A DNA stretch of 64,000 bases from Diplonema papillatum (taxonomy: Eukaryota > Euglenozoa > Diplonemea > Diplonemida > Diplonemidae). A model generated the notes under the pieces. That model saw only the letters and a program-made list of their open reading frames with translations. It had not been told where the DNA came from and ran no database searches. Location of the stretch: assembly GCA_030068145.1 (NCBI GenBank), contig JAPJBO010000097.1, forward strand, positions 337,665 to 401,664, written 5' to 3'. Position 1 is the stretch's first letter; every line of letters begins with the position of its first letter. Positions 20,668 to 63,503 of the stretch are shown here, piece by piece. The translations under genes were made by a program, and so were the position numbers.

Positions 20668-20769
20668 CTTGGTACCATGGTTCGTCAAGCTTGGCACCGG
20701 CTCGAATCATCATCTCCGCAAGTTCCGGGTTGCACCATGTAATCGCGCCGGTGAGTGGCGTGTTACCAT
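20668..20769 (-). CDS. Ankyrin-repeat exon c
   Basis: This 102-base phase-1 symmetric exon encodes a 34-residue ankyrin repeat with DGNTPLTGAITWCNPELAEM followed by MIRAGAKLD, matching the TPL and (I/V)xxLLxxGAxxx positions of the consensus. The acceptor ends GACGCAG and the donor is GTATACTTT. It lies between exons b (23.1 kb) and d (18.6 kb). Copy 2 at 62701-62802 is identical as far as read. Confidence 0.65.
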
Positions 20770-25951: not shown

Positions 25952-25953
25952 AA

Positions 25954-25980
25954 CTTGCACCAAGATTCTCTTGGTGCAAG
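25954..25980. repeat. Perfect 12-bp hairpin at the satellite edge
   Basis: CTTGCACCAAGA, three bases, then TCTTGGTGCAAG, immediately after the 31-bp array. Confidence 0.7.
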
Positions 25981-29334: not shown

Positions 29335-32300
29335 TTAACGCGTCGGCGTCGACATTCCTTTTCCTCGGTACGTGCTCCGATTACAATTTTTGAGTCGCCC
29401 CTGACTTTTGCCGGCCGGCCCTTCCACATCCTGCGGCTGCTCCCTGAGTAATCGTAGTCCAGCAATTAGGCCGTTGTATTCGGCCACATTGTTGGTGGTA
29501 CGTCCCAAGGGGATGACGGCCTCCGCTACCTTCACACCATCTCGATACACGACGGCTCCGGCTCCCGCTACCGCCAACGCGGTTCCGTTCTGCCTCGAGC
29601 CGCCGTCGAAGTATACCCACAGGCCTGCGGAAGCTTCATGCTGGGGAGGGAGAACAGCCCGGGCAGCGGTTGTTTTGCTGGTTGTGGTTTTTGGAGGTTG
29701 AATGCGTCGGCTTTGTACATCGGGCAGACGAACACCTGTTGTGAGTTCAAAATCGACGGCTAATTCCATGAACGTCACGGTGTGCTCTGACCCGATGTGC
29801 GCCCACTGCAGCCTACTCATCCACCAGTGCACGGCCTTCCACAATTCTTCGCCGTGCTTCCACTGCTTCCCAACCATTTTTGCGTCAATTGCTGGGATGC
29901 TGACTCTCCTCGGTTTCGACGTCTTCCATCCCCATGGGTACAAGGACAGGCGATGATGGCGTGATGTCTCTTGCTCTCTGTCATCCCTTATCTGCCTTTC
30001 GCGCAACACTGCCAGGAAGAATCGCTGCAGTTTACCTACGAACAGACAAGCTTGTTGATAGTCCAGCGGTACTGGCTGCTGTGCCGGATCTGTGCCGTGT
30101 TTGTACAGAGGCGCAACACCGCACAGGCTCAGACAGTTTGGCCATGCTGTCCGATTGACGCTATCCATACTGTGCTCTTTCCGGATATCCTTCCAAGCTT
30201 CGCACTCCCACCACAAATGCATAACCGTCTCTCTCTCTTCCTTGTTACAGTATGGACATGACCCAGTACGCCCCGTCCGACCTGTCGTTGCTACTGCCCC
30301 TGCGATTATTGACCGCAAGATGCCCCGCTGGTACCCTGTGAGGTTGTTGTCCGGTTCTTCCAGGAGATGGCGAGTGACGCTTCCATCCACCCCGTGTGCA
30401 CATCCCCTCAGATCTTCTCTTCGGATACACATCTTTGCCATCTGCTGGCGTCGCAATGCCTGGCGCAGGTCATGCAACATTATCTCCGTCTGCTTTTCCG
30501 TCGCTTCGCTTACTCGGTAAGCGACCTGCTGCCCGATCTCGTTTGTGTACCCGATTGTCGACGAACTCGTCCACAACCAGTCGGCTTGCTCCAGGGCGCC
30601 CTGCATTAGACCGTGCGGAGACCCAGCTGGCAAGGACTCTCTTTGCACCCAGGCCGTCTCTGCCAGCGTCCTGACCCACCGCCACTTCTGCATCTGCCTG
30701 ACCCAGGCTTTGACTCGCAGGTAAGCCGGCGCTGTGCTGGGATCCACCCGATGCCCGTGGTGTAGCACTTGCATCACTATCTCAACTGCCCGTCGGCTTG
30801 GCCCGGTCCACAGCGCCGTCATGATTGACTGGCGCAATGTGTTGGACGTTCGGTTGCTTAACGGCATGACTGACACCCCATAGAACGTCTTCGCGCACGC
30901 CGTCATCGATGTCAGCTCCTCTCGCGCCGAAGCAGGCACTGGGATCCTTTTTACTCGTTGCAGGTTCAGGATCGCCCCTTCCCTGCGCTTCTGAATCCTG
31001 CTCGACAGCTGGCGCCCGGGTCCTAACGCGTGCAACATCACTCCAAGACAATCAAAACTGTCGGTCCGTTCATAAAACCGTGGAGGGTTGTGGGGTATGA
31101 AAGCATCTGCGCCCTCCTGCCAAGTCATGATCTCGACTGCCGGCTGGCTCCGCGTCGTTCCAAACGAGTGCGACTTTACGAGACAAATCCATAAGCCTGT
31201 CAGTGCCGCAAAAACTACAGTTTTGTTCGCGATGGTCTGCAACTGGCTCGCTTCTCCGGCTGTGGCCGTGATATCGTCTACGTACGACCGAGGACGGCCT
31301 TCCTGGCTCACGTGCCTCATCCACACGCTTATCAGCAGTCCGATTAGAACCACGCTGATTGCACATCCCTGCATTATGCCGTTTGTGGGTATGAAACCCA
31401 CCCCGACCGTCCCATTCACTTTGAAGTGGCGCTTCATGTGTCGGTAGGCGGCCTTCAACGCCCGAAGTACCTTTCGGTTGAATCCTAACTTTTTCGCCAG
31501 TCTCAACGTTATGTTAATAGGGACGGAGTCGAAGCATTTTTTGAAATCGAATGCTATCCCATGTAGAGGGTTCCCGGTGAGCTGGGCCTCCTCGATCTCG
31601 GCGGCCAGGTGCCAGAACAAGTCCTCAGTACTGTGTCCAGGTCGGCATCCATGGAGCCCCTCTGGCGCCAGCTCGTCCATCCAGCGTTGCGCCTCCTTGG
31701 CTCTGATTGCTGCCCATATCCTGTACAAGACCGGTGTCACCGAAATCGGTCGCTGGGATAGTGGGTCCCCAGTGCTTTTAGGTTTGGGGATTAACGACAC
31801 GAGGGCGTGCATCAGCTCCTCCGGCCATTCGCCCTCCTCCTCCACTCTGTTGAGCACCTGCGCAAAACCCTCTAGTATTGGGTCCGGCAGTTGTTGTAAC
31901 TCGTGGATTCTCCACCCGTGCATTCCAGCCGATGCCGACTTCTTCATCTTCGCCAGTACCGCCCTCATGTCACCTGCGGTAATCGGGGCGCACTCCATCA
32001 CAGCCCTTTCCGGGAGGATCGGATCGTACATTCGTAAAAATCGGTCCCAACACGGCTCCTCTTGCGTTGCGTACCGGTGGAAAATACCCCCCCAAGCCTC
32101 CTCGCTCCGCAGGATCTCGTCTATTTCCGTCGCGTTCGCCGTCAGGGATTTGTCGTCCCGCCGCATGAAGGTCAGCGGCGACGAATACCTGTCCGCGATG
32201 TAGTCAAAGACCAGGCCCTTTCCATGCGCCCAAGCTTCCTGCATTTTGTGGGCCCACTGCGCCTTTCTGTGCCGTCTAATAGCGGCGAATGCAGCTTTCT

Positions 32301-34209
32301 GGGACCCCTCCAAGTACGACAAGGCACTCTGGAGCGCCTGCAACTCGGCTAGATCATCCGACATAACGATGTCGACAACTGCTGCCGGGATGTGGCCCTT
32401 CTTGACTCTCCTTCGTGCGGCTTCTCTCGCCCTCTCCTCCTGTCTTGTTAGGGGATACGGCACTTCTGCACTTAAACGCTCTTGTCCCGCTTGTACCAGC
32501 ATCCGCAGATGCCCCAACAGCTCGTCCCGTGCTCGCGTTTGCCTGGTGGACGCGCCCCTCGTTGACATGTGTTGATATCTAGTCGTCAACCGCGAGTAGC
32601 TGCCAACTTCGTCTCCGCGTCCCGTGTATGATTTAGTTGGGAAAGCTAACCCGTCTCTGTGCACCATCATGAGGTATTCCTCTGCTTGCTGCGACAGCTG
32701 TCTTAAGCTTGCCCCTCCTCTACGGGCCTCTCGCGCATCCGTGGCGAATTTTTCCAACTCGCTCTTCTTCTCCAAGCTGAGCTTGGGGCATTCCCGGGGG
32801 AACGCGGCCGGGAGGATAGCGCGCTTGTGGCGCTCTCGGAACGCTTGCTGTCGCAGTGTCACATACATCGGTGCATGTGTGTAGAACTGGCTGTCTTCTT
32901 TTGCTACCGTGAAAACTTTGCAAATGGCTGGTGCCGCACAGACGTTCGCGAGGCACAGATCAATTCTACTACCGCGCGTCGCGTTCGGCGCCCAGCAAGT
33001 GCACGGCGGTTCTTCACCTCGGCCTACCGCATAAGCGGCTGCCGCATCTGCCCATCTCCCAGATCGACACGCCGCGGCTAGTACGGGACTTGTCTCTGTG
33101 TTGCAGTTATAGTCACCAATTACCAGCGTTGGTACTTGTCCGAGCCCCGCCGCTATGCCCAGCACCTCTGATAGCAGCACCTCTCTTTCCCGTTGCACCT
33201 GCATACTACTTCCGCTTTGCCCGTACAGTGAAAACACATGCAAGGCCGTCTTTCCGTCACGCAGGGCTATGGCTACATGTACGAGACGGGTTGAATCAAC
33301 CACCGATTGTTCCACCGGCGGTATGCGCTGTGCTACAAGGTGTGGTCTGGTCATAACTGCCACCCCACCGGGCTTCCTCTGCATTCTCCCGTCTTTTCCT
33401 TCCACCATCGCCACGTCTTCACCCCAGTGCACATTCCATCCATACGCCATGAGGAGTGAGCTCATGTACGCCTTCTCTACCTTCGTCACGCGTGTCTCCT
33501 GCAGTACGACGACATCGGCTTCTAGTAGCGCCACCACCAGCAACTTTTCAGTGTCCAAAGACGTGACGTTGATGGTGACTACTACAACTTCGTCGTTTTG
33601 TTGGTGTGGTATCCCACTTGTTCTGCCAGGCAGTCCCGTAGAAACTCTGTCCGCTTGCGCGGGCTTTCTGTGCACTGTCCGTTGTTGCGGCCGGGGTCGC
33701 ACCTGTTCGCGCCTGCTTTCTTGGGCTCCGCGAGGCATCGGCGCTCTTTCAATCCGTCGTGCCGCCTCTTGACGGATGCATAGTTCCGCGATTGGCACCG
33801 AATCCTGTGTCGCCTCCTCTAGTTTCCGCATGGATGCCAGCGGGAGCAGCAGACTGTCGTAGTGCTGTGGCAAGTACGTTACAACGACCGTTCTGTCCGC
33901 TCCTTCGCTGCTGTATCGTCGTACGACGTCGCGCCGGCTCGCGTTCAGAATCCATATGTTGGCTTTTAACACCTCTGCTGCCGCGCACAGCGTCACCTCA
34001 TCTCCGTATGTCCCGTGTCGCCTCATTCTCGCCAGGTACGTTCCCAGCTCCTCGCCGGCCATGGCGTCCCAGTATCGAGAGGTGCTTGCCTCTATGCTCG
34101 CTACCACCCTATCTCTCAGGGTTGCCGCGTCAATTCCTCCGAACCCTGTCGCTATAGCCGAAAACTGGCAGTTACCATCGCCTGGCACCTGCACTAGTCT
34201 CCCGCACAT
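29335..34209 (-). CDS. LINE ORF2 with N-terminal OTU protease, APE, RT, CCHC and truncated RNase H
   Basis: This 1624-residue ORF begins with an OTU-type cysteine protease (1-125): PGDGNCQFSA puts Cys14 in the DGNC nucleophile box and LPQHYDSL puts His116 in the catalytic His box. An APE endonuclease follows (205-450: VVVLQETR, IGDYNCNTE, SRIDLCLAN, YTHAP in place of the usual SDH). The RT (about 800-1010) has GIAFDFKKCFDSV, NGIMQGCAIS and YVDDI. A CCHC starting CPYCNKEERETV is at 1318-1336. RNase H begins at 1531 with VYFDGGS and AEYNGL, then the frame is lost: GDSKIVI is in a second frame and the final ADALSNAAMD in a third, with about 50 residues missing between. The OTU domain starts at the ORF's first ATG, 103 bases after ORF1. 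Confidence 0.85.
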   Translation of the reverse strand: MCGRLVQVPGDGNCQFSAIATGFGGIDAATLRDRVVASIEASTSRYWDAMAGEELGTYLARMRRHGTYGDEVTLCAAAEVLKANIWILNASRRDVVRRYSSEGADRTVVVTYLPQHYDSLLLPLASMRKLEEATQDSVPIAELCIRQEAARRIERAPMPRGAQESRREQVRPRPQQRTVHRKPAQADRVSTGLPGRTSGIPHQQNDEVVVVTINVTSLDTEKLLVVALLEADVVVLQETRVTKVEKAYMSSLLMAYGWNVHWGEDVAMVEGKDGRMQRKPGGVAVMTRPHLVAQRIPPVEQSVVDSTRLVHVAIALRDGKTALHVFSLYGQSGSSMQVQREREVLLSEVLGIAAGLGQVPTLVIGDYNCNTETSPVLAAACRSGRWADAAAAYAVGRGEEPPCTCWAPNATRGSRIDLCLANVCAAPAICKVFTVAKEDSQFYTHAPMYVTLRQQAFRERHKRAILPAAFPRECPKLSLEKKSELEKFATDAREARRGGASLRQLSQQAEEYLMMVHRDGLAFPTKSYTGRGDEVGSYSRLTTRYQHMSTRGASTRQTRARDELLGHLRMLVQAGQERLSAEVPYPLTRQEERAREAARRRVKKGHIPAAVVDIVMSDDLAELQALQSALSYLEGSQKAAFAAIRRHRKAQWAHKMQEAWAHGKGLVFDYIADRYSSPLTFMRRDDKSLTANATEIDEILRSEEAWGGIFHRYATQEEPCWDRFLRMYDPILPERAVMECAPITAGDMRAVLAKMKKSASAGMHGWRIHELQQLPDPILEGFAQVLNRVEEEGEWPEELMHALVSLIPKPKSTGDPLSQRPISVTPVLYRIWAAIRAKEAQRWMDELAPEGLHGCRPGHSTEDLFWHLAAEIEEAQLTGNPLHGIAFDFKKCFDSVPINITLRLAKKLGFNRKVLRALKAAYRHMKRHFKVNGTVGVGFIPTNGIMQGCAISVVLIGLLISVWMRHVSQEGRPRSYVDDITATAGEASQLQTIANKTVVFAALTGLWICLVKSHSFGTTRSQPAVEIMTWQEGADAFIPHNPPRFYERTDSFDCLGVMLHALGPGRQLSSRIQKRREGAILNLQRVKRIPVPASAREELTSMTACAKTFYGVSVMPLSNRTSNTLRQSIMTALWTGPSRRAVEIVMQVLHHGHRVDPSTAPAYLRVKAWVRQMQKWRWVRTLAETAWVQRESLPAGSPHGLMQGALEQADWLWTSSSTIGYTNEIGQQVAYRVSEATEKQTEIMLHDLRQALRRQQMAKMCIRREDLRGCAHGVDGSVTRHLLEEPDNNLTGYQRGILRSIIAGAVATTGRTGRTGSCPYCNKEERETVMHLWWECEAWKDIRKEHSMDSVNRTAWPNCLSLCGVAPLYKHGTDPAQQPVPLDYQQACLFVGKLQRFFLAVLRERQIRDDREQETSRHHRLSLYPWGWKTSKPRRVSIPAIDAKMVGKQWKHGEELWKAVHWWMSRLQWAHIGSEHTVTFMELAVDFELTTGVRLPDVQSRRIQPPKTTTSKTTAARAVLPPQHEASAGLWVYFDGGSRQNGTALAVAGAGAVVYRDGVKVAEAVIPLGRTTNNVAEYNGLIAGLRLLREQPQDVEGPAGKSQGRLKNCNRSTYRGKGMSTPTR

Positions 34210-34311
34210 ACTGCGCGTGGTCTGCTCAATCCACCGGAAATTCTGGGTAAAATCCCTCGCTTCTTCCTCCTCTCTTCCCCCTCCGACCAGGTTTGCTGCC
34301 CCGGATGGCAG

Positions 34312-36375
34312 TCACTTATTACGAGGTTTCATGTAATCCGTGATCTTAGTTGCCCCGGCCTGCCTCTTGCTCTGCTGCGTAGATTCTCGTGATTTCGACA
34401 GGGACTGGGTGGTACCCCTTCTCCGTTTGCCGGCGAATGATGCCGTTGGTGCACACGGCGGCGACGCTGACCGGCTCTCGCTCGTCCCGGGTCTGGCGTT
34501 CTCTACCTGTTCCCTCAAGCTTTGTAACAGGGTGGTGAGTTCTTCCACCTTCCTCGCTAGCCTCGTGTTCTCTGCCTGCAGTTCTTCTACCACCCTCTGC
34601 GATTTCCTGCTCTCTTCCAACTCTTTCTCCCGCTCGACGAGTCTTGCAGTCAGGCGGTTATTGTCCCCGCGCAGTTCTTCCACCACCCTCTGCGATTTCC
34701 TGCTCTCTTCCAATTCCTTCTCCCGCTCGGCGAGTCTTGCAGTCAGGCAGCTTTTGTCCCCGCGCAGTTCTTCCACCACCCTCTGCGATTCCCTGCCCTC
34801 TTCCAACTTCTTCTCCCGCTCGACGAGTCTTGCAGTCAGGCGGTCGTTGTCCCCGCGGAGCCGCTGACACTCTGTTCCGACCCCCTCTTCTCGCGCCTGC
34901 GGGTTGACGGCTGGCGGTTTGCCCTGCTTGCCTTTTTTGTTTCCTTTCGAACCTTTGACGGCGTCAGCGTACGAGCGCGCCTTCGCCTGGTCGCCGGGGT
35001 CGTCGACCTTGACTCCCATGTCATTGTCCCCCCCGGCGGTTGCGGCTCCTTGTGTTGTCAAAACAGGGTCAGCCCCTTCGGTACCGGCCTCCTTCCACAG
35101 CTTCCCTCCGTGCTTTGGTCCGTAGCACCGTACAAACTCCGGCCTGGTGTACGTGTGCTGCTCCCTTTCTGTTCCGCGCTCGCTCGGGTCTTTTCTTCTC
35201 ACCTGCGGCGCTGCTTGTACCCACCGCTGCTCCGTCTCTCCCACGTGTCTTGCCATCGAGACCAGGACCTGCGTGCCTGTTCCCTCTATCTCGAAGACCC
35301 ACGCGGGCGGCTCGCCCCCTCTGACTACCGCCAATACCTTACCGCGCTTCGGGAGAGTTCTAATGGCTGTGACATCAGCCCATCCCGCATTCCGCAGAAA
35401 TGTCTCCGCTTGCGCCGCCGTTGTGCGTGGATGGAATCCGTTCACATCCCACACTCTGCCCCTCAGCACGGGGCCAGCTCTTTCGCCGACTTCTCGCCTC
35501 ACCTTTTCTTCGCCGGCGGCTTCAACCCGCAGTCCAAGTCCGCGTCGGTTCGCGCACACTCGGATCACGTCTCCCGGCGCCAGTTGCATCGCCTCTTCGA
35601 GGGGTGTCCCCGGCTTCAACCAGATGACGGGACCGCGGTCTGCCTTCCGCGCGACAAACACCCCCAGCTTCCCAGAGGCGGCCTCGAGTGCACTCACTGC
35701 TCCTTCCGGTGCCCTCACCAGCGCACCGAAGTACCGCCGCTCGTCTTCCGGTTTCCCGCACGTCTCTTCCCCGGTGATGACCAGGTCGACTGCCACCCCC
35801 GCGTCGCTTGCGTACTTCCGTATGTACGCCTTCAGATTTCCGGCAGCCGCCTGCCACTGTTCCGCCGTTGTGTATCGCCGGGGGATGCGAACCGAGAGCT
35901 TCGTCTTGTCATCAGCGTCTCGGCCGGATACGGCGGCTGGCATGTCGGCTGGCATGGCGGCTGTGCGCTTCACCAGCGTGGTGTTGACCAAGTCATCACC
36001 CAGTTGGATGATTGTGGCCTTCACTGCCTCCGTCCTCCCTCCTCTGGTGGTCACGACCGTGGTGACGTGCCCCTTTTTCCCGCCAATGGTTTCTTGCGCA
36101 ATGTCGACGACTACCGCCTTTGCGCCTGTCCATTCCTCGCTCGCTGCGATGACGCGTTCGGCTTCCTCGAGACTGGCCAGCGCCACGCCGTCCGCCGTCG
36201 CAAGCGACCCCACGTCGACCACGGGAACACTCCAGTCGCCGCCACGGAGGTGCGGTTGCGGCCTTCTCTTCTGCTTCGCTGGCACCCAAGGTACCTCGTC
36301 TCCGGTCTGCGTTTGCCGCGCTGCTTCCTTTTGGCAGTCGCGTTGCCCAGGGCCACCACATGGAGGTGCAGACAT
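34312..36375 (-). CDS. LINE ORF1 with triplicated coiled coil
   Basis: This 687-residue protein is the presumed RNA-binding partner of ORF2. A central segment (about 310-370) with VWDVNGFHPRTTAAQAETFL and NAGWADVTAI resembles the conserved part of ORF1b in retroelement A. The coiled coil (about 510-645) contains three consecutive units of about 32 residues, each built on LRGDNxRLTARLxEREKxLE and SQRVVEE. The C-terminus is basic and ends in KITDYMKPRNK. The ATG at 36375 is clear. Trimerisation is typical of LINE ORF1 coiled coils but is inferred here. Confidence 0.75.
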   Translation of the reverse strand: MSAPPCGGPGQRDCQKEAARQTQTGDEVPWVPAKQKRRPQPHLRGGDWSVPVVDVGSLATADGVALASLEEAERVIAASEEWTGAKAVVVDIAQETIGGKKGHVTTVVTTRGGRTEAVKATIIQLGDDLVNTTLVKRTAAMPADMPAAVSGRDADDKTKLSVRIPRRYTTAEQWQAAAGNLKAYIRKYASDAGVAVDLVITGEETCGKPEDERRYFGALVRAPEGAVSALEAASGKLGVFVARKADRGPVIWLKPGTPLEEAMQLAPGDVIRVCANRRGLGLRVEAAGEEKVRREVGERAGPVLRGRVWDVNGFHPRTTAAQAETFLRNAGWADVTAIRTLPKRGKVLAVVRGGEPPAWVFEIEGTGTQVLVSMARHVGETEQRWVQAAPQVRRKDPSERGTEREQHTYTRPEFVRCYGPKHGGKLWKEAGTEGADPVLTTQGAATAGGDNDMGVKVDDPGDQAKARSYADAVKGSKGNKKGKQGKPPAVNPQAREEGVGTECQRLRGDNDRLTARLVEREKKLEEGRESQRVVEELRGDKSCLTARLAEREKELEESRKSQRVVEELRGDNNRLTARLVEREKELEESRKSQRVVEELQAENTRLARKVEELTTLLQSLREQVENARPGTSESRSASPPCAPTASFAGKRRRGTTQSLSKSRESTQQSKRQAGATKITDYMKPRNK

Positions 36376-36412
36376 TTGATATTATTTAATGTTTTTGATA
36401 TTCTCTTCCAGC

Positions 36413-42007: not shown

Positions 42008-42105
42008 TATAACAAGTGATCACTTGTTATATAACAAGTGGCCCTTGTTGTACATTTTCACTTGTTAGGTCACTTGTTATATAACAAGTGATTGTGCATG
42101 ACAAG
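42008..42105. repeat. CACTTGTTATATAACAAGTG palindromes
   Basis: The exact 20-base palindrome occurs twice and shorter forms overlap, so the region can form several alternative hairpins. The style resembles the ACTAGT palindromes at 39.1-39.3 kb. Confidence 0.7.
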
Positions 42106-42785
42106 TGCGTCGTGTACGGACGGAGGGGGGGGGGGGGGTCGTTGTTGTTGGTGATGGTTTTGTGGGATGAAGTAGGGGAAAGAAAATTTCTTTTTGCGGT
42201 GGTCTCCGCTGGCCTGGTAGTCCGTGCTACCTCCTTTCTTTTACACTCGTTCTCTTCTCTACTCACTACTGTACGTACTCTTTCGCTCTTTTTCTCTCTT
42301 TGGCTAGCCAAAACAAAAGACTTCTGCGACCGACACCACGAACACATTCGCAATGAATGTGGCCCTGGGCCCCCCACGTGCATACATGTTGAGCAGGGGT
42401 TGCCATGTAGCCCGTATCGGTCTAAGTCAACACTGTTACTTTCATGGGATGTTCACCGGGGAAGGGTCCGACCTAACCGTTAGTCAACAGCAACGTCGAA
42501 AAGGGGGAGGGGGAAAGAAGATAGAAAATCGGTGGGGTTGACAAGCTCGTAAGTGGTTGTTTGTAGATCAGTACAACCTTAAACTACGCCTAGCACACGG
42601 CCAGGCGGTCTTTAACGAACCTCCAGTACATTAAACGCAAGTCGGCAGGTCGTCATCAGACGCGGCACGAAAAGCAAACGTCGCCGACGCAGCACTTCAG
42701 CAATGCGTCCTCTTATTTACAGTGGGCACCGTACCTGAACTCAGCCCCGCTAGGCCGAGATTCCGGCTGTTCCGCAGGGCATACA
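42106..42785. other. Spacer and 3' flank of the USP-RT gene
   Basis: Contains a G-run near 42125-42139 and, at 42345-42430, an inverted match to 22775-22870. No gene is recognised. Confidence 0.3.
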
Positions 42786-45700
42786 TCACTCCCCGAAGTT
42801 GACGTACGTGCAGAGACGTTCGTGCACATGCAGGCCTCTGAGGCCCCGGAACAATCGACCGTCCTTGGTGCGGTCGGTGAAGCAGCGCTTGCAGCGCAGT
42901 TCCGGGGGGTCCTTGGGCTGTTCAGGTGGCTGGTCGTGTGCTGCCAAAGCGGCGTCGGAGGGCATGGGTTGGCAAGATTCCAGATTCGCGTCGGTACAGG
43001 GCGGACTAGAAGGTATCAGCGGGACCTGCGGTGGGACTGTTGTTGCCATCATAGTAGGTGATGGCAAGCGTTCGACCACCTCGTGGGACGCATTGGGGAT
43101 TCGTACGTATGCGGCGAGGTATATGTCAGTCCAAGGAACGTTGTCGACGTGCAAGACTCGTTCGTCATCGAAAAGCGTCCATTGCATCCCTTGCAAGACG
43201 TATGTGACAAAATGGCCGCTTGTCGTATTTTGTCCCGTGTGTACAACCACCGCGGAAAGGCGTAGTGTGCCGTCCGGCAGTCGCAGGAGGAGCGGTAGGG
43301 AAGCGTCATTCCGTAGTCTCGCACCATCGCTTGCGTAAATGCCGAACTGCAACAGCAGGCACTCGGACGCCACATGCACGTTCATGGTCTCCACAACGGA
43401 TCCAGCAGCTCCGCAGTCACACCTCCTCTCCGGATTCATAATTCCACGAACACAGAATGCGTCCTCCACCGGCCTTCCACGAGGGACTTGAAGACACCGT
43501 ACCAGTTGATGACGGGTGGATGTGGCGCCACAGGCGATACATCGTGTTGTTGTCGTCATCGTGTTTTCCAGGCACGTCTGGAAAAGCCGCCAATCCGGAC
43601 AAGCCTCCGTCGTCTCGTCCGGCCCTAGGGAGCTGTCTGTCCTATCCAGAATTGCAACCAAAGCCTCGTGCGCGTCGTGCTGTCGCGCATCGCAGAACAT
43701 TGGGAGCATGGCGAGGATTGTTTCAGCCCCTATCCTTCGGCTGTCTTGGCTGAGCTGGCTCCTCCCCGAGCGCGAGCTTACCAGTAGGACGAAGTACGTC
43801 AAGAACTCCTTCAGGAACCCCCGGAAATTCAGAGGATTCTGCGCAAGACTGTAATACATGTTCTCGATCGGTTCCACACGCAACAAGAGCTGCAGTACCG
43901 CATTGAGAAAACAAGTATTCCCAAGGTTCGGGAGGCCGGCAGGTTCAAACGGTGACGGGTCGAACATGCGGGAGGGCCGTTGGATACAAATGACAGCTTG
44001 GCGGCCGACAGCGGGTGATGATTCCAGCATGTCAGGCACTGCATGGGACACGTCGCAGCGCCGTTTCGGTCCAGGCTGAGCAGCCTCATCGTCTCTGCGC
44101 TTGCGCTTTCCTTTAGTCGTCCCATCCTGGGGCACAAGATCACGACGCTGCTTCGGAGCCGCAGTGGAAGGCCGATCGGGCGTATCTCGTTCCGTTCGTG
44201 TGCCAGGTCGAGGACGGTCCCTGTATCTCACGAAGGCCTTCTCAGCGAGCAGCCTCTCGACCGCTTGGTCGATGGACTCCAAGTCGGGCATCTGCAGAAT
44301 GCGTTCCACTTCATGTACGAGCCACACGAAGTGCGCACGGATCTTCTCGCAGTGATCACCGAACTTCGCTTCTGGGTACGTGTCTAGTAACCATTTACGA
44401 AACCCACTTTTTAAGACACTCTTGCGGTACCCCCGTCTCATGAGCTTCAGCACCGTGTTGTTCATCTCGGTCTTAAAGTCATGGAGGTTGTTCGCAATCC
44501 TGCCGTTACGCACAAGCGCTCCGATGAGGATACTCGACCCAAAGTTCGATGGAGCCGTGGAGAGCACGGATGTGTACGCCAAGGGCTGGTATCGGTATGC
44601 CTTCGCTTTGTCGAGGACTGACAGGCGCATGTATCTCCTCCCGGACATCTCGGAGACTTCATGTCGAATCCGAATACCAAGGAAAGTGGCGTCCCCAACC
44701 TTGGCGTTTGTCTGTTTGTACCTCATGTTGTACACAGATTCCGGTGGGGGTTTTGTGCCGAAACACAACAGATCGTCAATGAAGCGGCGTGTCAGGCTAA
44801 GCAATGCCGCACGTTGCGTGTCCCCGTCTTCCAAGAGTCGCATCATGTATTTTCGCTCTTTCGCATAGCAAAAGAGGTTGGCGATGTCCGGGGAAGCGTT
44901 CGCACCCATTGGGATGCCTAGCGTCTGCCTCATGAGAACCCTATTGACCAGAACATAGGTATTCACCAGGCAGAAAGACAAGAGGGTCTTGAGCTCCTGC
45001 GCCGAATACGCTGCTTCATGTGACCGTACCTCCGTGTTTACCTTAAAGGCGAAACAGCGCTTCTTACGAGTCGGCCCGTGTTGGCTCTTCGGACGTACTA
45101 ATACGAGTCTTCCCGCGTCCACGTTCAAACGTGCAGCCTCCGCCGCGAAGGCCTCATTAATCGTGTCCGCAACCGCATTAAGAAGCTCCTCAAGCTCCAG
45201 CTGGTCATACATCGTTGTAAAGTCAAATGTACCAGCGTCCAGCTGCGCGAGTTCGTCCGCGTGTGTCTTCAGGAAGAAGGCCGTGTCGTCGCTCGACTCC
45301 GTGATCCAGAAGTACCGGTACCCAGTCGCGTTGAACCGAATGTCGTCTTCCCGCCGGAGGATGCTCATGATCGCCTTCAGCAAGCCGGTCAGGTCCAGTT
45401 GCGCGTCCGTCGTAGACGAGAACGTGGTCTTAGGGCGGGCGTCCCGTCCAGCATCGGCCGCCTCGGAGTCGGAGTCGACACAGTTCTTCCGCGAAACCCC
45501 AGCGATGTACCGCATGGACGTCACTTCCTTGTGCAGCTTCAGGGTGCCATATGGTTGACACCGCAGCGCAGGGGATCCCGCCCACTGCTGCTCCAACAGC
45601 TGACCATGCGGGGTCGGGCATAAGGAGTCCGGCAAGGGCGGGCAGGGCAATGGACTACCAGAAGGGTAGAGCAGGTTAGGTGATTCTTCCGACTGTCGGT

Positions 45701-47159
45701 TCACCACAACACCGGCAGAATTTGGGGGCGTAGACGAGCCGCGTAGCTGATCTTGAGCAGGAAGTATCATGGAGGGTGACGGCGCACGGACAGTCACGCT
45801 GTGGGCAATCTGGGGGACCCGGACAAAGGCCGCGAGGTAAACATTGTCCCAAGGAATGTCCTCGACGAGGCTGACCCGTAGATCGTCGAAGAGGATCCAA
45901 CCTGAGTCTTGCGCAACGTACGTGACGAAGTGCCCACTAGCCGTACTCTCCCCCAAGTGCACCACGACTGCAGCGAGGCGCAGTAGGTGGCCCGGTAGCT
46001 CTAAGAGGAGAGGTAACCCAACGTCATTCCGGCGTCTAGCGCCATTTCTCGTGTAGATGCCAAATTGCATCAGTACACAATCAGCCGTTAGCCGGAGGTT
46101 CGTATCCTCTGCCACAGTCCCTACAGCTTCGCAGTCGCACCCTCTCTTCGGATTTACAAACCCGCGTACGCAGAGAGAATCTTCCAGCCTTTTTCCGCAG
46201 GGGATCTGCAGACATTGTACCGCCTGAGGGCTGGAACTAGTTCGTCCACATGCCTCACATCGTGTCGTGTTGGTCCAACGGTTCTCCACGCATGCTAAGA
46301 AGAGCTGGTAGCCCGGGCAGGGGGCCTCGGTTTCGTCCGGTCCCAGCGTCGTCTCAGTCGCGTTCAGGATCGCTACCAATGCTTCGTGTGCATCGTGCTG
46401 CAGCGCATCGCAGAAGTTTGGGAACATGTTTAAGACGGCCTGCACACCCATTCTTCGACAGTCCTGGCTGCGCTGGTCCCCGCTGTCGCGCGAGCTTGCT
46501 AATACGGCAAAGTAAGCCAGGAAGTCCCGGAGGAACCCACAGCAGTTGAGGCGGTCCTGAGCAAGGCTCCAGTACATCTCCCTGATCGGTTCAACCCGTA
46601 TGAGGAGTTGCAGCACAGCACCAAGGAAGCACGTATTCCCCAGATTTGGGAGGCCGGCAGGACCAAACAGTGCCGGATCATGCTTCACGAAAGGCGGACT
46701 TGCACAGATGACCGATTGGCAGCGTGTGGATGTCGGGGGAACTGCATGAGCTGGTTTACAGGGGGGGGGGGGGGGGGGGTTAATTTTGGGAAAAGTACTT
46801 TTTCGGGAACTTCGGGCCGCAGTCAAAAATGGGTCGCAAATGGAGAGAATGGGGGCCAAGGGGTGCATTTTAATGATTTTCGCGGCCGATCTTCCAAATG
46901 CGCACCTCAGAATTGAACGCGTACACATGCAGAGTGACACCGGAGACACACGGTCACAGGAGACACCTGGTCGGAAAAAACCAGCACAATATATCCGAAC
47001 AACACCTAGAATTGTTGTCCAAAAATAAAGAAAATGCTGTCCACGCTTCCTGTTGGGGAAACCACTACCACAGTGGAGCAAAATCTCCAACGAGAAGACA
47101 CGCAAGGAGAAGCCGGATATCGTCAGCTCGTACAACACGTACATGGGCGGCGTCGACAT
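42786..47159 (-). CDS. USP-RT-USP protein: reverse transcriptase flanked by two ubiquitin-specific proteases
   Basis: Numbered over the 1457-codon frame. USP1 (about 160-455) has LPNLGNTCFL with Cys177, QHDAHEAL, two Cys pairs in the finger (CEAC 301-304, CDC 341-343) and SGHFVTYV with His410. USP2 (about 1070-1360) repeats all of these (Cys1093, HDAHEALVAIL, CIAC, SGHFVTYV with His1316) and is clearly a duplicate of USP1. Between them an RT (about 590-960) shows TFDFTTMYDQL (motif A), QTLGIPMGANASPDIANLF (motif B) and RRFIDDLL (motif C), the pattern of Penelope-like RTs. No endonuclease motif was seen. The C-terminus has CKRC...HVHERLC, a possible zinc finger. Residues 1 to about 130 run through a poly-G tract and antisense to a piggyBac relic, so the true start is probably downstream (for example ATG at 46868) or the element is 5'-truncated. 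Confidence 0.8.
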   Translation of the reverse strand: MSTPPMYVLYELTISGFSLRVFSLEILLHCGSGFPNRKRGQHFLYFWTTILGVVRIYCAGFFRPGVSCDRVSPVSLCMCTRSILRCAFGRSAAKIIKMHPLAPILSICDPFLTAARSSRKSTFPKINPPPPPPCKPAHAVPPTSTRCQSVICASPPFVKHDPALFGPAGLPNLGNTCFLGAVLQLLIRVEPIREMYWSLAQDRLNCCGFLRDFLAYFAVLASSRDSGDQRSQDCRRMGVQAVLNMFPNFCDALQHDAHEALVAILNATETTLGPDETEAPCPGYQLFLACVENRWTNTTRCEACGRTSSSPQAVQCLQIPCGKRLEDSLCVRGFVNPKRGCDCEAVGTVAEDTNLRLTADCVLMQFGIYTRNGARRRNDVGLPLLLELPGHLLRLAAVVVHLGESTASGHFVTYVAQDSGWILFDDLRVSLVEDIPWDNVYLAAFVRVPQIAHSVTVRAPSPSMILPAQDQLRGSSTPPNSAGVVVNRQSEESPNLLYPSGSPLPCPPLPDSLCPTPHGQLLEQQWAGSPALRCQPYGTLKLHKEVTSMRYIAGVSRKNCVDSDSEAADAGRDARPKTTFSSTTDAQLDLTGLLKAIMSILRREDDIRFNATGYRYFWITESSDDTAFFLKTHADELAQLDAGTFDFTTMYDQLELEELLNAVADTINEAFAAEAARLNVDAGRLVLVRPKSQHGPTRKKRCFAFKVNTEVRSHEAAYSAQELKTLLSFCLVNTYVLVNRVLMRQTLGIPMGANASPDIANLFCYAKERKYMMRLLEDGDTQRAALLSLTRRFIDDLLCFGTKPPPESVYNMRYKQTNAKVGDATFLGIRIRHEVSEMSGRRYMRLSVLDKAKAYRYQPLAYTSVLSTAPSNFGSSILIGALVRNGRIANNLHDFKTEMNNTVLKLMRRGYRKSVLKSGFRKWLLDTYPEAKFGDHCEKIRAHFVWLVHEVERILQMPDLESIDQAVERLLAEKAFVRYRDRPRPGTRTERDTPDRPSTAAPKQRRDLVPQDGTTKGKRKRRDDEAAQPGPKRRCDVSHAVPDMLESSPAVGRQAVICIQRPSRMFDPSPFEPAGLPNLGNTCFLNAVLQLLLRVEPIENMYYSLAQNPLNFRGFLKEFLTYFVLLVSSRSGRSQLSQDSRRIGAETILAMLPMFCDARQHDAHEALVAILDRTDSSLGPDETTEACPDWRLFQTCLENTMTTTTRCIACGATSTRHQLVRCLQVPRGRPVEDAFCVRGIMNPERRCDCGAAGSVVETMNVHVASECLLLQFGIYASDGARLRNDASLPLLLRLPDGTLRLSAVVVHTGQNTTSGHFVTYVLQGMQWTLFDDERVLHVDNVPWTDIYLAAYVRIPNASHEVVERLPSPTMMATTVPPQVPLIPSSPPCTDANLESCQPMPSDAALAAHDQPPEQPKDPPELRCKRCFTDRTKDGRLFRGLRGLHVHERLCTYVNFGE
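46761..46780 (+). repeat. G homopolymer at the 5' edge of the USP-RT gene
   Basis: About 20 consecutive G, read as a polyproline stretch in the minus-strand frame. It likely marks the boundary between the USP-RT element and the piggyBac relic, and is prone to sequencing-length error. Confidence 0.6.
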
Positions 47160-47768
47160 GGGCGATCAGCTCATGGCGAGTTGCGGGCGACTCATGAAGG
47201 GCCGGCGTTGGTACCTCAATTTTTTTCCTACGTAGTCGAGGTCTCCACTGCGAATGCCTACATCGTGTGGAAAATGCTGAGGACTGACAAGAAAGGAAGA
47301 ACACCTTCACTTCCCGATTTCAAGCGCAAGCTGGTGATGGAGCTCCTTTCCGCCGAAAAGGACTGCCCAACAGGGTGCTCTACAGAGACGGGAACCCCTT
47401 CCAACAAAACGATGCCGCCACCCTCACCTTCGCCCCAATTTGCTCGCAAGACAGAAAAGCAGAAGCACGGCGTTAAGCACAGGTTGAACGGGCTATTTCA
47501 CAACCTCGTCAAGCTGGATCAGCAGCGACAGTGCATATGCCGCGTGCAGCGCAAAGGTGCTCTTTACAAATGCGAGCAGTGCGATGTCCCTCTTTGCCCT
47601 GTGGAGTGTTTCGGAAGGTACCACACCATGGCGCAACATCTCTTCGATGACCCAACCATGCAAGGCACCGTTGACCGTTTGAAGGACCCCAACGGCCGGC
47701 ACTTCAAGAGAGGGAGGGATCTTACACTGTCGGCTGGCCACAGAATCAGCAACGTTGCAAAGAAGTAG
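47034..47768 (+). pseudogene. piggyBac transposase C-terminal relic, frameshifted
   Basis: One frame encodes RKEKPDIVSSYNTYMGGVDM and GDQL, the diagnostic YNxYMGGVDxxDQ motif around the last catalytic region of piggyBac (DDE) transposases. It shifts near 47225 into another frame with NAYIVWKML and, 75 residues later, a Cys-rich C-terminal domain (CRVQRKGALYKCEQCDVPLC and GRYH) that binds DNA ends in this family. A first shift near 47085 is also likely. The N-terminal catalytic half is absent. The minus-strand USP-RT frame overlaps its 5' part. Confidence 0.75.
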
Positions 47769-57367: not shown

Positions 57368-58316
57368 TGCGTAACCAAGTGAGGCTGTGTCACGCGAAAT
57401 CTGACGAAAACGGGAGAATGGGAAAGTGCGAGCAATGGGAAGTGGGAATGAGCGCACACAACAGCCTAGTTAGGGACCATTTCTCCGGGGAGTATCCCCG
57501 TGGTGGACCGTGATTCACTGTGATAAACAGCGGCAGGCACTTCGATGCAGTTTCAAGAGATAGGGACGGTCCGGCTCAGACTAAGACGGCTTACATACCA
57601 GTATTCACTACAGATCGATTTTGTTGCGATATCTCAACCGGGTCCGTTCCGTCGCAGGTCATGGGCATGGGTACGGAGGAGAGACAGAGCAATAGACCGT
57701 TGGTGCGGCAAAGCATTCGTTCGGATTATTATTAGTCTGCAGCACAGCCTGAAATGTAAAACCATTGGAACAAAAGGAGAAACGATCACCCTCTACGATG
57801 CTCAGGAAGGTGTTCCTAAGCGTGAAAGAATGAGAAAGCAGGCCTGTCGCTAAGCGGTTCCTGGTGATGTATGCACAACACGGCTACAACACGAAGATAC
57901 ATACAGCCCTGCTTAGGTGCGCACTCAGCCATGTGGTGAGAATAGCCACAGGACACTGTAGGTCAATGTTGTTAACTATTCTGACCACATTGTGGGAAGA
58001 ATTGTGGGTGCACAGTACTGATGAGAAAGGTGTGTCTGATATTGGCCCTCTTTTTTCCGTGAGTCGACAAACCCCAGAAAACACCCCCCTGAACATTTTG
58101 GGTGCTGCACGTGAATAAAAACGCGGATGCTTTCGGATGTGCTTTCTGCATCAGCCAACATCCATAATAAATACCCTCTCCCCTAGGGATTGAATAACCG
58201 AAACGGCGAGGGAAAAAATAAGGGAAGAGAGGGTGAATGTCAGGGAGCAGGGAAACTAAGAGCCGAGAAAGGTGGGGAGAGAAGAGCAATTTGACATGGA
58301 TACGTGCTCGCACGGG

Positions 58317-58502
58317 TCTCGGGCTTTAAGCCACGGACGCGGAAGGCGGATCATCAGCGCGGAACCAGAAGAATTTGGACCCAATAATTGGGACCCAAGA
58401 ACCCAAGAATTTGGAGTGCCTGCAGACAAGACAACGGCGAATCTCGTCCGTCAGCCACTGTTCGTAGCCCGTCATCACCACCCAGGGCCCGTCGTGTCAC
58501 CA
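58317..58502. repeat. R-family repeat, diverged (block B copy 2)
   Basis: Counterpart of 16375-16560. In this copy the Met/Asn-repeat gene's coding sequence reaches into it. Confidence 0.5.
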
Positions 58503-60337
58503 TCTTCTAACAAGCTGAAAATGGCGTTGAGATTGGAGTTGCCTTTTGACTCGTGGTGGTCGTCTACTTTGCCGGCATAACGTTGTTGTTGACCAGGTTG
58601 GTCGACAGCTTTGCTACGGGTTTTCCGTGAGGAGTGAGCGCTCTTGCGAGAGTTGCGATGCTCACTCGAGTCGCTCGACTCAGACGAGTCGCTACTGCTG
58701 CTTTCCGAGCGTCTGTGCTTCTTCTTTCTCGACGACTTTGCTACCGACTCCCTTTTCAACATCGTCTTCGCTAATTCAAAAGCCAGTTTCATCATGGCAA
58801 CTTGGTCCGCGACACTTTGCTGGCCCGTGGCCATCGGGTACCCACCTTGGAAATTCGCCATGTTTGGCAGATTCGACATATTTTGCAAATTCGCCATGTT
58901 CTGCATGTGCGGCATATTCGACATGTTCTGCATATTCGACATGTTCTGCATATTCGACATATTTTGCAAATTCGCCATGTTCTGCATGTGCGGCATATTC
59001 GACATGTTCTGCATATTCGACATATTCTGCATATTCGACATGCTCTGCATATTCGACATGCTCTGCATACTCGACATGTTCGGCATATTTGCCATGTGCG
59101 GCATATTTGCCATGTTCGGCATGAGCGGCATATTCGGCATACTCGGCATACTCGACATGTTCGGGAGCATTACGGATGGCATGCTTCCGTACACGGGTGG
59201 GCTGTGTCCATACATGTTGCCAGTCATTGTCTGCATCGGCATGCCGCTCATGCCAGGGAGCCCCGACGGCATTTGCACGTGTGCCGGGTCCACACCTGGG
59301 TGACGCATCATACCCGGCGGTTGGTACGCAGAAGCCGGTCTGGCAGGGTTGAAGTCGGCGGCGGGTTTGTCTGATTTTATTGTCTGGTCGAGGAAGGCAG
59401 CCCCGGTACGGAAGTCGACCGCGGGGTCCTTGGGGGCGAGGCGGCTGGAGGGGGTGATGTACGGGTGACCGACGATGCGCCCCGTGGCGGGCGTCTCGGC
59501 GCCCGCATTCGCGAACGAGGTCTGGCTGCAAAACGCCGAGTTTGGAAGCGAGAGGTTGATGGGCTGCTGGCACCTCGGCGCCCGTTCGCCGCGAGGCCGC
59601 ATGCCGACGCCCACACACTCCGCCGATTCCGAAGACGCCACGCTTTCTTCGACGCTTGATGGGTAGGGGAGTGCCTCGGCGCCCGGTTTAGAGTTCTTGC
59701 TGAACAGATACGGCTTTTCGGACGGCTGGATCGAGTGCAGAAACGCCGGGGTTGCACCTTCGTAGGGTATCCACCGATACGCGTCCAGAAGCGGCAGCGC
59801 AACACACGTTTGGACCTGCTCCGCCGAGTCAAGCTCTACGAAGACGGTTGGAATCTTGCTCGTCGAGCGGTCGTCCACCTCGCATTTGCACTGCGAGAAA
59901 TCCAAGTTCCTTTTGCCCGCTTCGGCGATGAAAATGCTGCGGATTTCCTGCAGCTGCCTGCCGTCGATGCGCGGGTTCTCGCTCGTCACGCTCAGGCACA
60001 TGATTTGGATCATCAGAACCTTGCTCTTGCTGCGCTTCGACACCTTCTTCGGGTCGACCTTCCACCGAAGCTCGTGTTTGGTGCATTCCGGGAGCCATTT
60101 GCGGACGTTCCCGATGTACGCGCTGCAAACTCTCACGATCACATTGCCTTGCGACTCGCCGCCAAGATGCCGTTCGACGAACAGGGCATGCAACTCTTGG
60201 AGTTGTGCAACTATCCACTTGGTCGTGCGGCTGTGCGGCATGTTCGTGACTTTAAGGGCCAGGTTCGCGTCGTCCCTGCTGCAGGTCTCAGCGTGCGGCG
60301 TGGCGTCGTGCGGAGGGCGCCAAACGGGCTGCGACAT
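58475..60337 (-). CDS. Met/Asn-repeat protein with RS-like tail, full-length copy
   Basis: This 620-residue protein is identical in layout to 16641-18284, with two differences. It has 37 more residues in the NMxxM repeat (an additional block of MSNMQNMSNMPHMQNMANLQ type), and it reads through the position where the other copy stops, adding 36 residues ending EDGDTTGPGW. This is likely the ancestral length. The N-terminal about 215 residues look globular and conserved; the tail is basic/Ser-rich. Methionine-rich repeats can drive condensation or weak self-association, but nothing here proves function. The gene overlaps an R-family repeat at its 3' end and has another 72 bases upstream of its start. 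Confidence 0.7.
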   Translation of the reverse strand: MSQPVWRPPHDATPHAETCSRDDANLALKVTNMPHSRTTKWIVAQLQELHALFVERHLGGESQGNVIVRVCSAYIGNVRKWLPECTKHELRWKVDPKKVSKRSKSKVLMIQIMCLSVTSENPRIDGRQLQEIRSIFIAEAGKRNLDFSQCKCEVDDRSTSKIPTVFVELDSAEQVQTCVALPLLDAYRWIPYEGATPAFLHSIQPSEKPYLFSKNSKPGAEALPYPSSVEESVASSESAECVGVGMRPRGERAPRCQQPINLSLPNSAFCSQTSFANAGAETPATGRIVGHPYITPSSRLAPKDPAVDFRTGAAFLDQTIKSDKPAADFNPARPASAYQPPGMMRHPGVDPAHVQMPSGLPGMSGMPMQTMTGNMYGHSPPVYGSMPSVMLPNMSSMPSMPNMPLMPNMANMPHMANMPNMSSMQSMSNMQSMSNMQNMSNMQNMSNMPHMQNMANLQNMSNMQNMSNMQNMSNMPHMQNMANLQNMSNLPNMANFQGGYPMATGQQSVADQVAMMKLAFELAKTMLKRESVAKSSRKKKHRRSESSSSDSSESSDSSEHRNSRKSAHSSRKTRSKAVDQPGQQQRYAGKVDDHHESKGNSNLNAIFSLLEDGDTTGPGW

Positions 60338-60408
60338 GCTGCCAGTAAGCCCGGTGGATTGCGACGAAGCTGCGAAAGTTACATTTCTCGAGTGCAGCGG
60401 GGGAAGAA

Positions 60409-60543
60409 CGGGCTTGGAATGGCTATGTGCTCAACACCGCACTGGTCCCGTCTGCGCCGTGTTTCGGTCCTTTAAGCCACGGCGGACCATCATCAGCGCG
60501 GAACCTGAGTGCCAGCAGACAGGACAGCGGTGTGAGTCTCGTT
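60409..60543. repeat. R-family repeat 5' of the full-length Met/Asn-repeat gene
   Basis: Counterpart of 18356-18490. Confidence 0.6.
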
Positions 60544-60660
60544 GGAGTGGGGCGTTTTGGAAGCTCGAAATCACCCATCAGCCTGTCTTGCTTCGATGCA
60601 GTCCTGCCATGTACAATCGGCACGTTTCTTACTTCTCATTGCTCGCAGAGGAAAGCATAC

Positions 60661-60780
60661 CAGAGTTCTCTTCAGTCTCTTGCTGAACCCGGACAGTCTC
60701 TTGCTCAACCTGGAGCAATCTTTTCACTACATCTCCCGAAGGAAACTTTGCTTTCGCGAGTTGCAAAGCCGAATAACGAC
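60661..60780 (-). CDS. Ankyrin-repeat exon d, copy 2
   Basis: Counterpart of 18608-18727, with the same splice borders (CACCACAG acceptor, GTATGCTTTCC donor) and phase. ETARV in copy 1 is ETVRV here. Confidence 0.6.
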
Positions 60781-62005
60781 CTGTGGTGGCATTGGTGGAG
60801 GCAATCACTAAATTGCGAGTCCCACGACACGAGCACAAGTGTGTCATTGCCATTGGGTGAAACGCTTGCCTAGAATCATGAAATCGAGAAAGTAGTTTAA
60901 TTTTCCAGTGTGCCACGAGTGGCCGTCACGTGACTTTTCCGTACGCGAGTTACGCACGAACGCAAGGAGGGTAGGGTCGACGGGGGTGGGTAGTATGCCA
61001 AAAGCAAAAAAGGATGTGCGAAGGATAGAGGCCACCGAAGCTGTCGCTGATGCCATGAAGCCCGCTACGCATGCCAAGTACCAACAAAGGTACGAAGGCA
61101 GTCAAATGTTTCCTTCGGGGCCCCACAAATGCAAACTCAGGACATGAAGGTTCATTTGCCTGCTAGCGATGCGGATTCCGAGGCCCCGGGCTCTGACTCC
61201 GACTAAGTTCGCTGCTCTCTGAGCACATATCACACCTTGCTTCGCTTCGTTGCCACGCCCATCATTTTCAATGCCTGCCCTACTGGCACACATTTTCGTT
61301 ATTTGCTTTCGATCCGTCTATGTCTACTTTACAACCTGCTTTCACCCTTGCTTTCTCCCTTGTTTGCATGGAAATCACAAATGGCTACTGTGCGAGAAAA
61401 GTAGCTACTGTGCGAGAAAAGTAGGGTTCTGAGCGAGAAAAGTAGGCTACTGTGCGAGAAAAGTAGCCCTCCAGTGCGCAACGAGCGTGCGGAAAAGTCG
61501 CGTGGCAGGTGGAAAAGTCCTTTACTGCCTGTCACCTGACTTTTCTGCATCCTTGAGAGCTACTTTTCTTACACGCATAACTACTTTTCTTGCACGCATA
61601 GCAGTTTTGGTTTCCAGGTGCATTTGTGGGCAATACAGGTGCATTCGTGGGCAATCCGGTGTCTTCGTGGGCAATTCAGGTGCATTCCTGTGGAAGTCAC
61701 AGTGCCAAAGAACAGCAAGGGACAAGGTTGACGCGCATGATCTGACAGCGAACGGAAGAATGATTCGAATGGCAGGACCAGCTCATTCGTTGCAGGATGC
61801 GGAGCAGGAGTCGGAGACCGCCAGTGCCATGGAAACTTGGGAAGCTGACGTGCAGCGTACATTGTGTGAGCCGACTGTGCTGTTGTACACGACCCCCGTA
61901 GCTGGTGTGTGGTACGCCATCTTCTTGGCCTTCGGCGTCCCCACACCCTGTGCGTAGCTCTCTCGGACGCAGAAAAGTCAGGTGATGCGGCAGTAAAGTA
62001 AAGCA

Positions 62006-62118
62006 ATCTTCTTACCTCGAGACGTCGGTTTTCCAGCTTGCCACTCGAGCCCTGCGGGCTCGAGTGGCAATCTGGAAAACCCGAGTGCAAGAAAACAACG
62101 TTCTCGAGGTAAGAAGAT
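62006..62118. repeat. Foldback element, copy 2
   Basis: Counterpart of 19952-20064. Confidence 0.7.
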
Positions 62119-62506
62119 AGCTTAACTGCCAGGGGCAACTTACTTTTCTGCACCACGAGTGAGCTACACGGCCAGCCACAGCCCGCCAACGCTGTGTCGA
62201 CAACATCGTAGTAGGTGCAGGTTTGACTCCTAGCTTTTGCAAATCTGCTTGCCAGGTTGATGTACAGATATGCTTTCCAATTTCAAGTAGCAACCTCGTG
62301 GACTTGGCCTGTTTTCTCTTCCGATTGTCAAACTTATCACTCATTCTTCGCATTTGGTCCATGTTTGCGGGCCCGGCAGGTCTGCAGGCGGGGAGCATGG
62401 TGTGGCAAAAAATGCTCTCGTTGAGGTAGATTCTTCGCGGATTGCCCACTTTTTCCCCCTTAAGATGTCAGTATGACAGGCTATTTACCACTGGAAACCA
62501 GTTTTG

Positions 62507-62575
62507 CTTGGAGTGTAAGAAAAGTAGCTTGGAGTGTAAGAAAAGTAAGCTTGGAGTGTAGAAAAGTTCACGGTG
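62507..62575 (+). repeat. 21-bp tandem repeat, one unit shorter than copy 1
   Basis: CTTGGAGTGTAAGAAAAGTAG units; see 20453-20545. Confidence 0.65.
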
Positions 62576-62700
62576 ATGCAGAAAAGTAAATTGCCCGGCA
62601 GTAAATAGCTACTCCTGAGATGAGTCGCTGGCACACACAGCTTCGTCCGTGTTGTCTCTTCGACATTTATTTACCCTTTTCTTATCAAAGTAAAGTATAC

Positions 62701-62802
62701 CTTGGTACCATGGTTCGTCAAGCTTGGCACCGGCTCGAATCATCATCTCCGCAAGTTCCGGGTTGCACCATGTAATCGCGCCGGTGAGTGGCGTGTTACC
62801 AT
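62701..62802 (-). CDS. Ankyrin-repeat exon c, copy 2
   Basis: Counterpart of 20668-20769, with the same 34-residue repeat (DGNTPLTGAITWCNPELAEM...), phase-1 borders and GTATAC donor. Confidence 0.65.
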
Positions 62803-63503
62803 CTGCGTCGTTAAAAATACGGGTTTTGACGACGCAAACGCAATTGTGCATTCGGTAGAAATTGATGTTGGAACACGCAAGACCTCCTTCCGAATGCTAC
62901 AACATCGCAAGCGCTATGGGAGAGGGGTGATCCCGTGCACATCACAGGACCGACAAGCGTGTCTCCCCAAAATCCCAAACCCTCTGACCTGTTTTTTTTC
63001 CTCTGGCGCTGGACAGCCCAATTGTTTCGCTTCGTGTGCTTTCTCTGAAAATGTTAAAACATGCGAAAAATACTCGAGGGGCTGCCTTATGCTTACTTCG
63101 AAGGAGGCTAGAGGGGGAAACAATACAACTACAAAGTGGTCCCTTTTAGAGTTATAGTCCGCTTCAGAATCCGGGATTATAGAGTCTCCGGGTGACCTTC
63201 GTCGAATGGCTTATATTTTAAAGCTAATACGTTCTGGGTGGGTTTGGGGGGGCATTGCATGGCTTCTTTCGTGTACACTTTACTTGCTTGCTTTGGCAAG
63301 TCAGGTTCGAAACAATTTGTGAACGACATTTTTTTGTTGAACGCTTAAACCCAGATGTACCTGTGTTTTGTGTGGGCTACAGCATATTTGCCTCCTTTGA
63401 TGTTGGAATATTGTTGCGATGGTGGGGAGATTTGATCTTTCGCAACTGGCAGCCTTCTCAAGTATTTCCTACAATAGCAGGTGCTTTTACGGTGCGTACA
63501 CAA

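Follow-up and report, generated by a model that had tools for sequence, protein, structure and literature searches.

A chimeric open frame from two related retroelement families of Diplonema papillatum, and the complete, putatively Penelope-like elements with a ubiquitin-specific protease from which it derives

The locus analyzed here lies in a 64-kb stretch of DNA (the window) that forms the final part of a 401,664-base contig in the 271-Mb assembly of Diplonema papillatum, a diplonemid of the Euglenozoa. A first-pass annotation had described a single uninterrupted frame in which a reverse transcriptase (RT) is flanked by two ubiquitin-specific proteases (USPs), and such a frame is indeed present (Table 1); the span originally given, 42786-46690, covers the domain-bearing part, and the whole frame reaches 47159. 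A search of the entire 1457-aa protein with the Pfam UCH profile detects two stretches (E 2.4e-45, 155.6 bits), in agreement with a protease domain on either side of the RT. Both USPs contain the Cys box, QHDAHEAL, CxxC, CxC, SGH[FY]VTYV and FDD motifs and thus look catalytic, as had been proposed; the UCH fold signature (peptidase C19), with Cys, His and Asp boxes and the finger cysteines, is present, and the closest solved relatives by sequence, in which the three boxes align, are USP36, USP12 and USP46. The RT profile gives a mixed result: the RVT_1 match is sub-threshold (13.3 bits versus a cut-off of 29.6), whereas the RT motifs are located where they had been reported. Given the UCH score, the shared catalytic pattern, the RT motifs in place and the 61% identity between the two USPs (over a 279-codon core), the USP and RT domains of the frame are, as judged from sequence, not chance matches. 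Two structure predictions (mean pLDDT 30.5 and 35.8) were too poor for use. The initial ~127 residues of the frame represent unrelated DNA, and part of this stretch runs antisense to a piggyBac-like remnant that is visible by eye at 47010-47765 (plus strand; zf-Tnp_2 17.9 bits, under the cut-off of 24). Elsewhere, the window contains a long direct repeat (15426-21967 and 57368-64000, 97-99% identical) and a tandem array at 24841-25955 with a period near 31 bp, as estimated from self-match offsets.

Table 1. Features of the fused locus (window coordinates; a dot marks features without strand)
Feature	Position	Strand	Basis or remark
Open frame, 1457 aa (USP1-RT-USP2), chimera	42786..47159	-	
Chance 5' extension of the frame	46780..47159	-	Unrelated DNA, without match to element proteins
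Oligo-C (minus strand), outer 5' edge of inserted unit	46761..46779	.	
Family-3 piece: linker, USP1, linker	45554..46762	-	1,209 nt identical to L048
USP1 domain (approximate)	45816..46655	-	UCH profile, motif pattern
Junction base matching neither source	45553..45553	-	Pieces fused in frame
Family-1 piece: RT, linker, USP2, zinc-finger-like end, 3' untranslated part	42139..45552	-	
RT, from first conserved RT motif	44280..45551	-	564 preceding P0001 residues missing
USP2 domain	43140..43937	-	Pfam UCH, residues 1075-1340
C-terminal Cys/His-rich end	42810..42899	-	Zinc-finger-like by eye
Oligo-C (minus strand), 3' edge of element	42125..42138	.	

Comparison of the frame with related Diplonema sequences shows that, at the sequence level, two related retroelement families each contributed a piece to the USP-RT-USP locus, which is a chimera. 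Residues 537-1457 are identical to residues 565-1485 of the protein P0001 at 919 of 921 positions, and this family-1 piece is a 5'-truncated element copy. Residues 134-535 come from the interior of an element of a second family (family 3); residues 134-201 match residues 1063-1130 of the family-3 protein P0003 at 67 of 68 positions, and the locus L048 is a complete, intact copy of that family. The proposal that one USP arose by internal duplication accordingly failed, since source copies of USP1 and USP2 were found in two separate families. Given that both pieces are near-identical to intact source copies, the open state of the fused frame carries little weight.

The complete elements have one common layout. 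P0001 (1,485 aa), P0002 (1,499 aa) and the product of L048 (1,497 aa) each consist of a GIY-YIG domain, a middle region, RT, a linker, one USP, a second linker and a zinc-finger-like end, so that each has a single USP, C-terminal to the RT, and no element of the kind first envisaged, with the RT between duplicated USPs, was found. The scores of the GIY-YIG profile (Pfam PF01541, cut-off 22.6) are 23.0 for P0001, 22.6 for P0002 and 20.9 for P0003, that is, two of the three reach the cut-off. P0003 is an annotated model without most of the USP, which was probably removed as a predicted intron. A search of the genome with P0001 gave 1,258 candidates, 31 of which were scored: 14 cover residues 1-1485 with no stop, another 13 begin between residues 14 and 415 (one of these contains a stop) and four are family-3 copies at 68%. 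Most of the 13 later-starting family-1 copies are truncated at the DNA level, with graded 5' starts; element DNA extends further 5' in L042, and the 5' flanks of L035 and L038 are rearranged and hold other element parts. In the window itself, tblastn with ten relative proteins (E 1e-5) detected no further element piece. Upstream of a family-1 coding frame, L061 (1-572) contains a tandem array of 2.6 copies of a 222-bp unit. In several gene models (P0004, P0006, P0007, P0008 and P0010), element pieces are combined with other proteins, among them a magnesium/proton exchanger and RRP12; these models probably result from annotation through the element.

The search for further genomic copies, suggested at the outset as a means to define the element ends, yielded complete single-USP copies with 3' ends at C tracts. 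Among the 27 family-1 loci, 26 3' ends were recovered (the exception is L043), and all 26 lie beside a tract of at least 4 C, sometimes interrupted early, although not all of these ends are independent because L019/L044 and L031/L032 have common 3' flanks; in family 3, the 3' end is at a C tract in three of three loci. Edge repeats could be assessed at 17 loci, the 5' edge of nine others being outside the stretch examined. Such repeats, at least 9 nt long, starting in or at the C tract and ending no more than 11 nt from the 5' edge, are present in 14 of the 17 copies; most are weak because they consist mainly of C, those of L024 and L040 are 38 and 37 nt of ordinary sequence, and L035, L038 and L041 have none. 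Neighbouring partial copies adjoin across C tracts at L019, L021, L041 and L048, a pattern that independent adjacent insertions would produce as well. Thus, the complete elements are shown to be recent, multi-copy and bounded by oligo-C tracts. The oligo-C ends, the edge repeats and the graded 5' truncation fit target-primed reverse transcription at oligo-C, and it is very probable that the complete elements move in this manner, in which case the GIY-YIG domain would be the probable nickase of the oligo-C target. Just past the 3' edge of the element in the window, at 42019-42092, lies an inverted repeat of 25 nt, near-perfect and with palindromic arms, that may be a small DNA transposon; the same segment gives weak matches to microRNA precursors, under the cut-off.

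How the two pieces came together can be addressed by examining the join. A 241-nt junction query had 278 candidate matches in the genome, and among the 40 that were scored, 35 cover only the family-3 side, three cover only the family-1 side and two span the join. One of these two is the window locus; the other is a segmental duplicate of it at a distance of 62 kb in the same contig, 99.8% identical over 9 kb and then continuing with gaps. Residues 134-1457 are identical in both, and we read the two loci as one event, the only one among the scored matches to keep the USP-RT-USP order. The duplication (window 41554-64000 versus C97:317102-334290) is located at the contig end and could be real or an assembly duplicate. 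The most likely origin, in our assessment, is a single insertion with a template jump: reverse transcription would have begun at an oligo-C target with family-1 RNA as the template; near the first RT motif it would have switched to family-3 RNA, entering within the linker between the USP and the finger, before it stopped. The C tracts at both outer edges, and the absence of one at the inner join, favour this scenario over two insertions. The fused protein is probably a dead RT, as it lacks the endonuclease along with the first 564 residues.

Two successive insertions, with a family-1 copy entering or abutting a family-3 fragment and the flanking sequence lost later, would be in keeping with the element copies that adjoin one another across C tracts, but such a history appears rather unlikely given that the inner join has neither a C tract nor an edge repeat and only a single extra base, and that the rest of family 3 does not follow in the window. 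The remainder expected after a family-1 insertion into a resident family-3 copy was sought downstream in the window and was not found. The original interpretation, namely that USP-RT-USP is a true element architecture produced by internal duplication, could draw on the open frame and on the catalytic boxes kept in both USPs, but it is refuted among the copies searched: USP1 shares 1,209 identical nt with the other family, and the two of 40 scored junction matches that span the join belong to the same event; we assign it practically no credence. An assembly artefact, with a join absent from the organism, has in its favour the position of the window at a contig end, the repeat-rich assembly, the presence of the locus in two places and the warning about artificially duplicated repeats in the Diplonema genome paper itself (PMC10161547); nevertheless, it is very improbable considering that the join is base-exact, that the copies around it are otherwise unbroken and that C tracts flank it as they do other insertions. 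We hold with considerable confidence the overall explanation that combines a chimera formed by template jump, complete elements inserting at oligo-C and, as its most tentative part, a role for the USP.

The RT motifs, which we take to be of the Penelope-like type, are borne out at the positions first reported, and so is the layout: in the complete copies, a GIY-YIG domain precedes the RT, and by layout and motifs the element is a putative Penelope-like element (PLE) of the N-terminal GIY-YIG type. Many PLEs contain a hammerhead ribozyme, which is not obligatory; Rfam matching detected no hammerhead in the locus, the window, L061, L062, L048 or L022, and a look for the pattern gave none either. 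Elements of this type, Chlamys and Naiad, are reportedly described by Craig et al. in 2021, and Chlamys has an N-terminal GIY-YIG (PMC12477816). Like them, the Diplonema element has a GIY-YIG domain at the N-terminus, RT motifs of PLE character and a single frame, with truncation at the 5' end and possibly head-to-tail neighbouring copies, but it differs in the USP between the RT and the C-terminal finger, in the oligo-C ends and in that no hammerhead was found. In the open-licence literature that was searched, we found no report of a USP-bearing PLE.

Among the matches listed in a first protein search, all 10 are from Diplonema papillatum, and those listed in a second comprise eight Diplonema proteins and two fish proteins with UCH domains; a third added a metagenomic relative, P0013. 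These searches rely on shared exact words, the first two scoring a limited number of candidates, and so may miss distant PLEs. P0013 is a single 521-aa protein on a metagenome contig of 2,518 bases; its RT is 51% identical over 387 residues and matches a group II RT model with E 5.9e-6, far under the cut-off of that model. There is no UCH match in P0013, and its Cys/His-rich end resembles, by eye, that of the elements. Given that P0013 combines an RT with a similar end and seems to have no USP, this one protein suggests that the USP was inserted between the RT and the end of an ancestral element. Four scans of viral contigs detected no relative, a PDB sequence search with the RT alone gave nothing relevant, and the NCBIfam, PHROGs and PADLOC profiles gave weak matches only.

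In a search of the genome with the UCH profile, 149 of 935 candidates were scored, among which 54 at 85.3-85.9 bits and 41 at 76.5 bits were counted by eye; by the coordinates compared, the group of 54 holds family-1 copies and the group of 41 holds copies 73% identical to USP1. The USP1 query produced 103 scored matches out of 668 candidates, none with an internal stop, and USP1, USP2, P0001 and P0002 all fit one catalytic pattern (4/4, USP2 and P0001 being nearly the same sequence). Between families 1 and 3, compared by the NG86 method with synonymous sites near saturation, amino acid identity and dN/dS are 79% and 0.10 for GIY-YIG, 79% and 0.068 for the RT, and 61% and 0.155 (dN 0.29) for the USP; linker 1 is 34% identical (dN 0.83, dS not estimable) and linker 2 is 36% identical (dN 0.68, dN/dS 0.184), a ratio that, with such saturation, is no different from that of the USP. 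Three comparisons of family 3 with other, truncated copies, in which saturation is lower, give dN/dS of 0.181, 0.198 and 0.224 for the USP (224, 203 and 137 codons), 0.375 for linker 1 (92 codons), 0.471 for linker 2 (40 codons only) and 0.155 for the RT end (45 codons). With values about 0.2 in these comparisons versus 0.375 and 0.471 in the linkers, the USP is, by these estimates, under purifying selection that is weaker than that on the RT and stronger than that on the linkers.

A deubiquitinase-type protease is also found in another class of retroelements of the same genome. The window contains a LINE (29341-34311, minus strand) with an N-terminal OTU domain (35.1 bits, cut-off 23.3), an APE endonuclease and an RT; the OTU-LINE region spans 29341-36381 (minus strand), with further copies at L063, L064 and L065. 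A genome search with the OTU domain gave 656 candidates; the 150 that were scored lie, as judged by eye, mostly in long open frames whose lengths recur, and three of three frames sampled from the 150 (picked by frame length) are OTU-APE-RT LINEs. A second LINE frame in the window (2449-7026, minus strand) contains APE, RT and RNase H, with no protease matched. Thus, two unrelated retroelement classes of this genome carry predicted deubiquitinase-type proteases, USP and OTU. The OTU LINEs share with the USP elements the host, the presence of such a protease in a retroelement protein and the repeated copies, but differ in the OTU fold, the APE endonuclease, the RVT_1-type RT and the N-terminal location of the protease. 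In other organisms, Ginger1 DNA transposons encode OTU or Ulp1 (PMC2836005), so that a mobile-element protein likewise has a ubiquitin-type cysteine protease as its C-terminal part, but the folds are different and the element is a DNA transposon; in Trichomonas vaginalis, the same peptidase family, C19, is fused to an IS5-like transposase (PMC2836005), that is, to a DNA transposase and not a retroelement; and the NeSL and Utopia-1_TSP LINEs (PMC4640811) join a ubiquitin-like protease domain to an RT protein, differing in the Ulp1 fold, its N-terminal location, the restriction-like endonuclease and the LINE RT. The Diplonema genome paper lists LINE, SLACS, R2 and jockey-like proteins, and its main text has no occurrence of 'Penelope' or 'ubiquitin' (PMC10161547).

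Since unrelated retroelements have captured two different deubiquitinase folds, it is plausible, as far as sequence can tell, that these enzymes have a role in retrotransposition. We tentatively propose, as a possibility somewhat short of even, that an ancestor with an RT and a finger only acquired the single USP now present in the complete elements, and that this USP is an active deubiquitinase that would act on the protein of the element itself or on host factors, thereby protecting retrotransposition. In mouse, polyubiquitylation and degradation of L1-ORF1p restrict L1 (PMC5570191). Alternatively, the substrates of the USP might be factors of chromatin or DNA repair at the site of insertion, and not the element protein. 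The closest solved relatives of the USP, namely USP36, USP12 and USP46, could be taken in this sense, as could a proposed action in repair of the ubiquitin and SUMO proteases that transposons carry (PMC2836005); the nearest solved relative does not reveal the substrate, and we regard this alternative as unlikely. Still less likely is a passenger or structural binding module without catalysis in the element life cycle: P0013 seems to manage without a USP, but the catalytic boxes are kept in all four copies tested and dN/dS is about 0.2. Returning to an active deubiquitinase, the independent captures of a USP by a Penelope-like element and of an OTU by a LINE could, as a similarly tentative possibility, reflect a host that restrains retrotransposition by ubiquitination, which the captured enzymes would reverse.

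The case described here illustrates how an insertion accident can give rise to a striking fused frame in a repeat-rich genome. Ubiquitin and SUMO proteases are recurrent in mobile elements. If the proposed capture in response to host ubiquitination is true, a ubiquitin arms race would be played out inside an RT polyprotein; and the occurrence, in one host, of young, open, near-identical copies of USP retroelements beside OTU LINE families makes the question of why mobile elements carry such proteases testable.
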